Assembly: GCF_041381155.1 (NCBI RefSeq)
Contig: NC_091139.1
Coordinates: 6,882,383 to 6,946,382, forward strand
DNA from: Argopecten irradians
Lineage: Eukaryota > Mollusca > Bivalvia > Pectinida > Pectinidae
Direction of reading: 5' to 3'
DNA length: 64,000 bases
Shown: positions 6,746-12,700 of the stretch, piece by piece
How positions within the stretch are numbered: position 1 is the stretch's first letter
Layout: each line of letters starts with the position of its first letter
The notes under the pieces: model-generated
Database searches by the model: none
Told to the model about the DNA's origin: nothing
The model's input: the letters and a program-made list of their open reading frames with translations, nothing else
Made by a program: the position numbers and the translations under genes

Positions 6746-9700
6746 CTATAGAAGAACATATGTGGCTGCCGTGGCTACACCACAGTTATTATCCTTTTGT
6801 GACATAAGGACATAACCGTCGTTGCCCCAGTACGTGGACCAGGAATTCTTAACCAGCCAGTAGTCTTGTCCAGCAATAGTTCCGTAACCTACAGCCAGTA
6901 CAGCGTGGTCGAGGGCATCATCAGTATTACCTGAAAAAGGTAAAAAGTCACTGGTGGTAAGAAAAATATTTTATCAGAAATATTGTTTTAAGCTGCGATG
7001 CAGTACCTGTGGACAGCGAACAAACAAATGATGTACGACAGAATACAGACAAAACCCTATGAGTACATGTTACACTAGGTATATGCTATAAGGCTCTTTC
7101 ACGTGTAAATATGAAGGATAAGGATATTCTACCCGAGAGTCTCAAAATGTTATAGAAATAGAGGCTTGTCAAGGGTTTCACAACTATTTGTGATCCAGAG
7201 GGTAGAATATCAATATCCTTCATATCATTACACGTTTTTATAACAATTTCACAGATATGATATCCCGTCATTTTGACCTAAGTTCAAAGAAAATTGTGAC
7301 CGAAAGTCAATTCTTCATATATTAAAATTGCGTGATATGTTTAACGCAAATCCCGGTGTTTTAGTTCTTTATAGTAAAACCAGCCTAGATTAATCAAATT
7401 CGTGAAAATTCACCGAGTAAATGGTAATCTTATAGATACAGTGGCGTCACGAGGTTGTATTGAATGGATAGCAACTAGGCACGTAATACAGCCTCATACG
7501 ACACGAGCGGGGATCTGTATGAGAGATATACATACATACTAATAATCGTCATATAAACTCATATCTGGATAAACGTCACTTATAGGGTCATAAAATGCAG
7601 AAACATCAGCGGTCACATGGACCAGTTAAGATATATATCCGGACCCAACCAGTAGTCGTGACGGACCAGTAGTCATGATTGTGTGCATATTCTACAGTGA
7701 GTCCAGATTTCTGAATATCTAGAGCTGCTGACGAAAACTTCATGATGGTTTTTTGGTAGAAATAATGTGCTGAATGAAATGTAAACAATTATATTTTCTC
7801 CAATGCACTATTGGTAGGGTCCCAGTACAACATTCACACCAATACAAACTGTAAGTAAATTACCAATGCATACAATAATTTATACTATTCAAAGCAGGCC
7901 TGATTAAATCAGCATCGCTAAGCAGCACCAGAATCACATAAAATCATTTTTATTAACAGTTTTATACTTACCACATGCTGGCTCGTAGTAGATGCCATTG
8001 GCGTAGAAGGAAAGCGACTTGTGTGAGGCGTCAATAGCAACAGAAACAGGTCCCTGGTGAGCAATAGCAAATTTGAGTGCTTGAAGGTCACCCTTGGTGA
8101 CGTTGACATAATTCTTCAACGTCACAACAGGTTTCACAGCTGATGCGTGACATTTGCCATCCTGAAAAACGTAAAACATCAATCAAATTACTTTCCTTTG
8201 ATTTCATATTTCCCCCTGATTTATTCAGGGGTAGCAGTCTACTTCATTAATCGTGTGTATTTTTGGTGGAAAAGTGGCCATTTTGTATCGCCTGGCCAGT
8301 AAGTATACCATATTAAAATTTTAGCGGCAATTGGTATAAAAAAAGACATATTTCACGGAACCCAAACAAACGTATAATGATATTTATTTCACACCATGCC
8401 CTGTTTGTTAATAGATTACCTTGTCTATAACGAAAACTCGTAATTTGCAATATTGTAGTTCAAAAGCTTTTTAGACAGATAATGGTGTCGTCTTTAGAAA
8501 GTATATTAGGCCGGATACGTGAATTCGTTGTAGCAGGATACAATTTAAACGACATTTTTATCTGTCTTTTGAACTACAATATTACAGCTAGTGTCCTACC
8601 AAACTAATCGGATATGTAAATGTTTAATGTATACTTATATATATGTAAGAAAAATTAAACCTTTTTCTTTAAAAGGTATTTCTTTGTATAAATCGAAGTA
8701 ACTAAGTTTTAAAACATATCCTTAATACTAGTTTATATGAAACGCACCTGAGCGAGGTAAGGTCCATACATTTCTTCACTCGTAATCCCATTGTTCTTCA
8801 TTATCCAGTTATAGGACCGGAAGTCCTCACCTCCGTCACAGGCATTGTTCCCCTCGCCCCATGAGCAGTCCATCAATTCTTGTTGGGATAGTCGTACTAA
8901 GTGTCCAGACTAAACAATTTATCAATTATTGGAATTAGTTCATTAAAATAGCTATTCTTTACTATTGTATGTTGATGTCATAGATATTTGTAAATCAACA
9001 GGCAAGATAAATAAAATTTAGTGTAAAGAAAGTCAGAACAAAAAAAAAAGTAGAAATATTTGCAAGTTGAACGTTTTCTAAGATCATGAGTTCCATCATT
9101 ATTTCACCAGAGCATAATAATGTTGTGCAATAAGCAGTTTTCACTCAACTTGAGGAAATAGGCACCCTCAAACGTACCAACAGTTCCAAAGCTCCAGTAC
9201 ATCCCATAGACGTTTTCACTCACCCTACTCTTAATTATACCAACAGTACCAAAGATCCAGTACGACTCAAAGACGTTTTCACTCACCTTGAGGAAATATG
9301 CACCCTAAATCGTACCAACAGTACCAAAGCTACAGTACGACCTAAAGACGTTTTCACTCAGCTTGAGGAAATAGGCACCCTCAATTGTACCAACAGTATC
9401 AAAGCTTCAGTACGACCCAAAGACGTTTCCACTCGCCTTGAGGAAATATGCACCATCAATTGTACTAACAGTACCAAAGCCCCGGTACGACCAAAAGACG
9501 TTTCAACTCGCCTGAAGGAAATAGACACCCTCAATCGTACCAACAGTACCAAAGCTCTAGTACGACCCAAAGACGTTTTCACTCATCTTGAGGAAATATG
9601 CACCCTCAATTGTGCCAACAGTACCAAAGCTCCAGTACGACCTATAGACTGTTTTCACTCACCTTGAGGAAATATGCACCCTCAATTATACCAACAGTAC

Positions 9701-12700
9701 CAAAGCTCCAGTACGATCCAAGGACGTTTCCACTCGCCTTGAGGAAATATGCACCCTCAATTGTGCCAACAGTACCAAAGCTCCAGTACGACCTATAGAC
9801 TGTTTTCACTCACCTTGAGGAAATATGCACCCTCAATTATACCAACAGTACCAAAGCTCCAGTGCGACCCAAAGACGTTTTCACTCACCTTGAGGAAATA
9901 AGCACCCTCAATTGTGCCAACAGTACCAAAGCTCCAGTGGGACCTATAGACTGTTTTCACTCACCTTGAGGAAATATGCACCCTCAATTATACCAACAGT
10001 ACCAAAGCTCCAGTGCGACCCAAAGACGTTTTCACTCACCTTGAGGAAATAAGCACCCTCAATTGTGCCAACAGTACCAAAGCTCCAGCAAGATCCACAC
10101 ACTGCTTGATCCTTGACAGGAGTGACAGCTCCTAAAAACAACGGAAAAAACAGTACATGGTTTCTAGACATTACATGCACAAAGGGGAGGCATGATTAAT
10201 TCATTGCAATATCTGAACTTTACTGGATGCAATTCTAGATTTCAAAAAGATAAAAAAATAGCTGACTTGAGCTAAATAGCTGAAAAAAATCATATCTGTA
10301 TATTTTTTGTATTGTGCCTAGGAGTAGTTCCCATTTAAGTCTTAAATCTAAAACGCTATCTAGTATATATACATTTTACAAAAGTATACCAAATAAATCC
10401 TAAGCATTAAAAATGATCAATTACAGATAGCTTCTATCTATGTTAAGGCCTCTAAATTACAACATGTGCGTACCATACAGTCTCCAGTCCCAGCTGTCTG
10501 GGGTGGCCTTATCCTGGTACTTGGTCTTGTCAAAGGGTAGTCCACCATGATGACCTGGCGTGCGTCTGAATCCGTTCATCATTGAAAGTTCTTCAACTGA
10601 TTTATCAGCCAAGTGATTCACAGCTAACGTGTAAGACAGACCAGCCCTGTTCTTGGAGTGGATGAACCTAGGAGATAAAACCAGACTTATTACCATATCT
10701 CAACCAGTGAAATCACTAAAATAAGGAAGACATCTAACAGGTGAATTATTTCTTGTATAGCTAAAACACAGAACCGACTATCACTTTGTCATTGAAACGC
10801 CTTTTTTGAGGACTAGGGTGTGGTGGGATGGGAAAAGGCCTGGTATGTTTGGCTAAGTGATTAGGTGAGTTCGAGTCAATAAATTGTCATTCTTTGTTAA
10901 ATTATGTTTCTTTGATATGTTACAAAACATTAAGGACATATTACTTATAATGACCATAAATCTTTAGTTTTGGTCACATTCAATAAGGTTCCCAAGAGGA
11001 GGAACTCGACGCCATGTACACTTGCAATTCATATCTTTAGGACTCAAGTTCTCTTTCCTTGAATTTAAAATCATTATCAAAAGTTGACTGAAAAGATGAG
11101 CACCATGTATGTTCTTTTTTCATTTGATTTCCTTTACAAATTGGGTAAAATTGCATTTTAGGACTGATTCGTCAACAAGATGGCCACCAGTCCGCCATCT
11201 TTGTTTTGATAGTTAAAGATTGTTACCGCTATTTCTTAAAAAAGTACTCAAGAGATCTTTCTCAAATTTTATACGTAGGTTCCCCTAGGGCCCTAGTAGT
11301 GCATATTGCATTTGCATTTTTGGACCGAATGGTCAACAAGGTGGCTGACAAGCTGCCATCTTTGATTTTGAAAATAAAAGTTTAGTACCGCTATTTCCCG
11401 GAAAGTACTGATGGGATCTTTCTCAATTTTCATATGTATGTTCGCCTAAGTCCCTAGTTGCGTATATTGCATTTTGGGACTGATCGATTAACAAGATGGC
11501 CGACAAGCCACCATCTTGGATTTTGATAGTATGAGATTATTACTGCTATTTCTCAGAAAGTACAGAAGGGGTCTGTCTCAAATTTTATATGTTGGTGTCC
11601 CTTCGGCCCTAGTTGTGCATATTGTGTTTTGGGAGCAATCCATCAACAAAATGGCCAACAGGCAGCCATTTGTTTTTGTTATTTAAAGTTTAAAAAAACA
11701 GAGAAAAGATCCTTCTTTCCTTTATCAGACATAGATCATTCTTTGGTAGGCAATCAAATCAGTTAAAAGTCACTTTTTCTTTTGAATACCTTTTTTAAGA
11801 TCCTACCATCTAGTCAAACTAAGCCTACATTTACTGTACTACAATCAAACATACCTTAGATTGTTTCTGAATTGATGTTGCCTCTGGGCGTGTTCTTTGA
11901 CTGAATGGTATTTACGGCCATGTTTAGTTTTGAATTGTCCAAACAGGTCCTGGACATGCTGGTCGTAGTGGTGGATGTATTCCTTCATTGGGTTCATCAG
12001 AACACGACGTTCACTGTCTCCAGGGCCGGGGAAGTCACCACATGTTATCCCTACAAAAACACCAAGTATTCATTCAACTTCAGATTTTCTTCAGATTAGA
12101 AAAATATGTATATAAGGATATTAATACAGGGCTCGGATTTTACATTTTTTTGTCACTTGCCCTAATGCCCTACAATAAATTTTATACTTGCTAAAAATTG
12201 TTTTATTATTTATAATTAAATTAGATTATGATGTGCGCTGTTTAGGTATCAACAATTTTACAGTAGATCTGTGTCCATTAAAACAATTTTTTACAATCAG
12301 TATGTCATTTTTACAGTTGTCCCTGATAAAAACCACTTGCTTAAATAAGGAAGAGCATATCTTTTTAACTTGCTATTCTGGTATATTTAACAGTACTCGC
12401 AAAAAGCAAGTAAAATAGCCTTAAATTCAAGCCCTGTAAAACATCAAGTATTTACTGTATTCAACTAAAGATTTTCTTCAGATTGGAAAAATATGTATAT
12501 AAGGATATTGGTCAATGAAGTATTCTGTGTTACACAGTTTCAGTTGTAGCATTCTTTTGAACATCATGACTAAACCTCAGCAGATTTTGCCTTTGACTTC
12601 CGCTCATCAATGGGTTTATTGTTTTAAACTTTATTCTAATATTTGTTTCCTTTGTCTTCTTGCATTTTCTATTGTAAATTCTATATCATGTGGCAGTGTT

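Follow-up and report, generated by a model that had tools for sequence, protein, structure and literature searches.

What becomes of a coding exon when its end, splice donor included, is repeated over and over in the intron that follows? The locus that raises this question lies in a 64-kb stretch of Argopecten irradians contig NC_091139.1 (positions 6,882,383 to 6,946,382; hereafter the window, whose own positions serve as coordinates), where 12 tandem units immediately follow a 92-bp exon in a papain-family protease gene whose reading frame is open, with array, exon and host gene all on the minus strand. Judged from the sequence, concerted evolution appears to link the tail of this exon to the units in the intron, while leaving out the neighbouring segment that bears the catalytic cysteine. 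An earlier reading of the letters alone (the sequence-only reading) had noticed the array and taken it for an intronic ladder of decoy donors; that the exon is itself a member of the array is a point it missed.

The array and the exon tail

Tandem Repeats Finder places the array at 9233-10088 with periods of 75 (11.4 copies) and 151 (5.7 copies), and delineation by hand extends it to 12 units at 9137-10027 (Table 1, listed from the exon outwards). The sequence-only reading had counted about 12 copies of 75/76 bp, which is right except for a single unit of 63 bp, and the strict 76/75 alternation that it described for the gene-proximal half is found in units 1-6. The repeat unit consists of 63 nt of exon tail (21 codons; V-x-G-S-x-WSFGTVG..FLK) and 12 nt of intron (GTGAGTGAAAAC), and the end of the exon at 10131-10040 reads CTCAAG|GTGAGTGAAAAC. 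The register chosen here, 63 nt of exon followed by 12 nt of intron, accounts for both ends of the array, with unique intron sequence resuming after the last unit. An exon-intron border has indeed been amplified, as that reading held; of the roughly 30 bp per unit that it took for intron, 12 nt are intron and the other 18 nt, read as codons, resemble VCGSCW. The 15-nt head of the consensus unit shares 10 of its 15 positions with the VCGSC codons of the exon, a level reached by 0.6% of shuffled heads and by 43 of the 62,991 15-mers on the minus strand of the rest of the window; because such a match is rare by chance, homology is likely, and the head is likely a diverged copy of these codons. 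Exact sites of AAGGTGAGT number six in the window, at the exon donor and in units 1, 2, 3, 5 and 10, against an expectation of 0.36 (0 of 100 shuffles attain six). The array was detected at one place in the 846-Mb assembly of 1508 contigs, search counts being lower bounds.

Comparison of the exon with unit 2 reveals two segments with different histories of change. The last 48 nt of the exon and the first 12 nt of the intron are identical to unit 2 (60/60), in contrast to 7 differences in the 15 nt of the head (Fisher 3e-6); the 15 nt of the exon that include the catalytic Cys differ from the units at 5-7 positions. This head/tail contrast is significant in all six of units 1-6 (p 3e-6 to 0.007) and has p < 0.05 in four of units 7-12, the exceptions being units 7 (p 0.16) and 11 (p 0.06), with the proviso that the Fisher tests assume independent sites and that the 12 unit rows are also not mutually independent. 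At a lag of 151 nt the sequence is identical to itself for 147 nt from the TGG codon of the exon onward, plus one base before it. Exon tail and unit 1 together equal unit 2 tail and unit 3 at 136 of 136 nt, bearing out the recent 151-bp dimers that had been proposed for the proximal half, and units 1 and 3 are identical. The exon and unit 2 sit together at zero length in an unrooted tree built from the tails, and are joined next by units 4, 6, 7 and 8; this group lies apart from units 1, 3, 5 and 11 and from units 9, 10 and 12.

The distal units are more diverged, as had been noted: distance from the exon tail is 0-5% in units 1-6 and 8-17% in units 7-12, rising outward (Spearman 0.72, permutation p 0.005), and private sites number 3 in the former and 26 in the latter. 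Minisatellites evolve in concert by unequal exchange and gene conversion, and the expected marks of this process are present here, with neighbours more alike than distant units and with higher-order dimers at the 151-nt lag. On the simplest view, the most recent 151-bp duplications began in the exon tail and carried its variants (columns 36 and 51) outward, or exchange ran in the opposite direction; the contrast between an exchanged tail and an unexchanged Cys segment would hold for either direction. Five positions of the head distinguish the exon from the consensus unit, three of them at third codon positions and two replacing Cys residues, a pattern that would be expected if the exon head stayed coding while the array head drifted.

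Host gene, coordinates and neighbouring arrays

The gene model takes in six exons, from 12050 to 6746 only. Joined, they form an open frame of 339 codons, terminal stop included, and match Peptidase_C1 (PF00112, E 7.6e-69) and Inhibitor_I29 (PF08246, E 6.5e-15) in Pfam. The joined exons contain CGSCW, DHAV and NSW, the Cys, His and Asn active-site motifs of papain-family (C1A) peptidases. The closest solved-structure matches of the protein are cathepsin L-like and related, and its EDFR-Y-W motif is reminiscent of the group of the 26-29 kDa protease and counting factor associated protein D. Other papain-family exons occur at seven places in the assembly with 41-57% protein identity (best other match 57%), too diverged to tell which of exon and array carries the older variant, so that changes between them are not polarised. 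A tandem-repeat scan of these seven loci (~3.1 kb, periods of at least 30) detected arrays in three of them (L007, L008 and L010), and no array touching or abutting the matched exon in any of the seven. The arrays that were detected are of longer period and lie at a distance from the papain-family exons (L010:170-1184 and 2098-2987; L008:183-677; L007:1-547).

Table 1. Protease gene features and repeat units, in window positions
Feature	Position	Strand	Length (nt)	Donor	Remarks
Modelled part of papain-family protease gene	6746..12050	-			I29 propeptide and Peptidase_C1; open to the stop
Modelled exons	12050-11855, 10667-10474, 10131-10040, 8909-8748, 8161-7972, 6930-6746	-			Gene model
Host exon (exon 7 of the sequence-only reading)	10040..10131	-	92	AAG|GTGAGT	Gene model and Pfam Peptidase_C1; phase-0 end
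Unit 0 (63 nt of exon, 12 nt of intron start)	10028..10102	-		True donor, 10040/10039	75-nt segment repeated in the array
Unit 1	9952..10027	-	76	AAG|GTGAGT at 9965/9964	Use would add 25 codons in frame
Unit 2	9877..9951	-	75		Tail equals exon tail (60/60); in-frame TAG ends every longer read-through
Unit 3	9801..9876	-	76	Intact	Identical to unit 1
Unit 4	9726..9800	-	75	Now GC
Unit 5	9650..9725	-	76	Intact
Unit 6	9575..9649	-	75	GT to AT
Unit 7	9500..9574	-	75	CAG|GCGAGT	Sole unit with a CAG acceptor-like end (TTTCCTTCAG|G)
Unit 8	9425..9499	-	75	GC
Unit 9	9350..9424	-	75	GT to CT
Unit 10	9275..9349	-	75	Intact
Unit 11	9212..9274	-	63	AGG|GTGAGT, intact	12-nt deletion
Unit 12	9137..9211	-	75	GT to TT	Unique intron sequence next
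Host intron	8910..10039	-	1130		903 nt (9137-10039) are array, including 12 nt of unit 0
Next exon	8748..8909	-			Acceptor TAAATTGTTTAG|TCTGG, unlike unit end

Other tandem arrays are present in the window, and some of its repeats have a bivalve-like appearance. A 155-bp array of 3.3 copies (11150-11669) lies in another intron of the same gene, between exons 12050-11855 and 10667-10474, and two abutting arrays lie upstream of the modelled exons (13867-14990, 161 bp x 7.0; 13292-13869, 126 bp x 4.6). The first of this pair resembles by eye a 164-bp array of 3.1 copies at 2383-2871, which has a G/C-rich block in each unit. An ACAT tetranucleotide array of about 135 copies with 96% matches occupies 60007-60545.

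Donors, reading frames and the fate of the decoys

The sequence-only reading had each copy repeat CAAG|GTGAGT; the exact motif is present in 5 of 12 units and changed elsewhere, with GTGAGT in 6 of 12 and the remainder reading GCGAGT (three units), ATGAGT, CTGAGT and TTGAGT. Its statement that the catalytic Cys codon is Tyr or His in the copies is accurate (9 and 3 of 12, respectively), and the Phe it gave for the neighbouring Cys applies to 7 units, with Tyr in 4 and Leu in 1. Stops in the frame of the exon occur in units 7, 9 and 10. Donor 1 is the only decoy that keeps the full frame open, adding 25 codons as predicted from the 75-bp step, and all 11 of donors 2-12, of any length class, run into one TAG in unit 2; this shared stop makes the distinction between frame-keeping 75-bp and frame-breaking 76-bp units matter less than had been supposed.

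We consider it probable that the end of the exon was duplicated, that the copies multiplied while the exon tail exchanged sequence with them, and that the array is a by-product, tolerated and weakly harmful, accompanied by some mis-splicing. A founding tandem duplication would have fused the start of the intron (GTGAGTGAAAAC) to the codons of the active-site loop (V-C-G-S-C), producing a 75-bp unit of exon tail, donor and 12 nt. Growth would have followed by unequal exchange or replication slippage, lately in 151-bp dimers beside the exon. The exon tail is itself a repeat unit of the array, one that selection would keep coding and able to splice while it swaps sequence with nearby units. If the breakpoints lie within the identical tail, the 15 upstream nt that hold the Cys codon would neither enter the array nor be overwritten; an exchange that did overwrite them would leave an enzyme without its nucleophile. 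New units, being intronic, would be free to decay. The exon's own donor (10040/10039) is most likely the one used; occasional use of donor 1 would yield a protein longer by 25 residues, and use of a later donor would lead to the stop codon and probably to nonsense-mediated decay. The spare splice signals are probably tolerated rather than useful. This account suggests that a coding exon can join the concerted evolution of non-coding repeats, and a repeat array could in this way rewrite synonymous sites of an enzyme beside its active-site Cys.

Confidence in this account must be tempered by several points. The tail tree is unrooted and built from 13 short rows of 60 columns, with supports of 0.58-0.94. 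Exchange may have run from the exon to the array or from the array to the exon, the closest other match available for comparison having 57% protein identity. The head could instead be filler DNA at the duplication junction (10/15 matches; chance p 0.0007-0.006), and the head/tail contrast would then say less about exchange with the exon. There is also no local reason for the exon donor to win, as positions -48 to +12 are identical at donors 0 and 2 and recognition confined to them cannot separate the two. Predicted RNA accessibility is lowest at the exon donor of all 13 donors, and donor choice by RNA accessibility was rejected on this ground. More broadly, the -48 to +12 context of donors 1-6 differs from that of donor 0 at 0-3 of 60 positions, and the three differences at donors 1, 3 and 5 fall outside the donor 9-mer. 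Donors of such near-identical context, of which presumably one is used, offer a natural test of 5' splice site choice.

A more elaborate version of the same account, which we regard as unlikely, would make the array a self-renewing decoy system in which a protected master exon tail seeds armed donors into its own intron, and may itself be rewritten, while selection disarms the older GTs. If it were true, splice accuracy would be a moving balance of amplification against disarming, set by copy number and varying among individuals.

A functional ladder is also unlikely. Here the decoys would compete for U1 and divert transcripts to forms extended by 25 residues or truncated, with copy number tuning the output of protease. 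Computed U1 pairing is equal for donors 0, 1, 2, 3, 5 and 10 (-10.4 kcal/mol) and nearly so for donor 11 (-9.8), as against -6.0 to -7.5 for the three GC donors and -3.7 kcal/mol for the remaining three, and the near-identical context of donors 1-6 likewise favours competition. In in-vitro work on duplicated donors, the intron-proximal site is reportedly preferred when both are U1-bound. By analogy, human IFI6 uses downstream repeat units as donors (PMC4526556). Against such a role, the GT is gone from 6 of the 12 donors, so the ladder put forward earlier is not intact, and the TAG of unit 2 leaves one productive decoy only. Donor sequence moreover shows no sign of constraint that would keep the decoys: across units the donor 9-mer has 0.89 changes per site and the other positions 0.80, and exon-derived (0.81) and intron-derived (0.83) positions hardly differ.

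About as unlikely is the proposal that the decoys are harmful enough for GT-killing mutations to be favoured while the exon yields new armed units. Six of the 12 units have an altered GT, through four kinds of substitution (G>A, G>C, G>T, T>C), and column 64 is the sole column of 75 to show all four bases. Recent units 1, 2, 3 and 5 are armed, and 6 of the 8 others have lost the GT. Excess change at the GT has p 0.010 under random placement of 40 distinct states and p 0.004 by Fisher on unit counts (6/24 vs 55/864), though these counts lack independence and a single event may underlie all three GC donors. When changes are counted by parsimony on the tail tree, p is 0.027 with 60 columns and 0.061 with 75, some dinucleotide attains as many as four states in 51% of random placements, and positions +3 to +6 are unchanged in all 12 units. 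This slight excess is no more than a hint of selection against armed decoys.

We find it very unlikely that TATTTCCTCAAG|GTGAGT, where each unit ends, serves as acceptor and donor at zero distance in the manner of recursive splicing, with the intron removed in 75-nt steps and the protein unaffected. Unit ends read TTTCCTCAAG in 10 of 12 units and TTTCCTTCAG in one, AG|GT adjacency is present in five units and AG|GC in three, and the pyrimidine fraction at -20 to -4 is 0.59-0.65 in 11 of 12 (0.41 in the shortened unit 11), within the 0.47-0.82 of the six real acceptors of the host gene. An acceptor is therefore not wholly absent, and the earlier claim that no copy has one was too strong. AAG, however, is a weak acceptor end, the codons Y-F-L-K by themselves impose the motif, which the exon has just as well, and the intron is only 1130 nt long. 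Unit 7 has the only CAG acceptor-like end (TTTCCTTCAG|GCGAGT), which together with the donor of unit 10 could make a cryptic exon.

That misassembly inflated or invented the array is more improbable still: the array is known from one assembly, and units 1 and 3 are identical, but 9 of the 12 units carry private differences (29 sites) and the array, ~0.9 kb long, lies inside a 48-Mb contig as the single place found in the assembly; a copy-number error of one dimer may be present. Four further candidates were rejected: a new intron created by the array, since the intron acceptor (TAAATTGTTTAG|TCTGG) and the end of the units (TTTCCTCAAG) do not resemble each other; a repeat that is dispersed or present in many copies, given the one place found; coding paralogues, given the stops and lost Cys; and, by reasoning, a gene in the antisense open frame of 177 aa (9134-9667) through seven units, which probably arises by itself from a 75-nt period without a stop in that frame.

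Known systems

The sequence-only reading called minisatellites born from an exon-intron border rarely described, which is fair, although precedents exist in IFI6, in human boundary minisatellites and in fission yeast repeats. The IFI6 minisatellite, the subject of a 1995 paper, has a repeat unit of about 12 bp, in contrast to the 75 bp, 63 of them coding exon, of the scallop unit. It lies at an exon border, and two of its downstream units are used as donors to give three mRNA species (PMC4526556). The likeness is that tandem units directly after an exon carry 5' splice sites, here 12 units with GTGAGT in 6. The differences are that the exon tail here appears homogenised with the array, that all but one of the 12 decoys would run into a stop, and that donor use in RNA is reported for IFI6 while the present donors are known from DNA. 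In-frame alternative products of the IFI6 type would be confined to donor 1.

Minisatellites at exon-intron boundaries are also reported from human segmental duplications, where they may cause novel introns via cryptic splice sites (De Grassi & Ciccarelli 2009, PMC2812944); those repeats average four 30-bp units in recent paralogues. They share the boundary position with the present array, which differs in having twelve ~75-bp units and a host gene for which the assembly contains no close paralogue. In fission yeast, SPOG_01682/SOCG_00815 contain tandem 24-nt repeats with AGGC proto-splice sites (PMC3629103). Intron gain by tandem duplication relies on AGGT proto-splice sites in the duplicated segment (Rogers), with potato RdRp as an example (PMC4974935). 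Its counterpart here is the AAG|GTGAGT that ends unit 0 and 5 of 12 copies; it differs in that the present intron acceptor does not resemble the end of the duplicated segment, the array lies inside an existing intron and no new intron is evident. The ratchet points of recursive splicing in Drosophila resemble the unit ends in having an acceptor-like motif abut a donor (AG|GTGAGT), and differ from the short intron, AAG end and coding origin of the pyrimidine tract found here.

With concerted minisatellites the array shares homogenised proximal dimers, polarity and diverged distal units, and differs in counting among its members the tail of a coding exon, true donor included. In word-matched searches of open-licence papers no report emerged of an exon whose coding tail belongs to the donor array in its own intron. 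The kind of system is already known; what is less usual, as far as such searches show, is a long coding unit with active-site codons, a coding exon tail that functions within the repeat family, and several near-identical donors among which a single one is likely correct.

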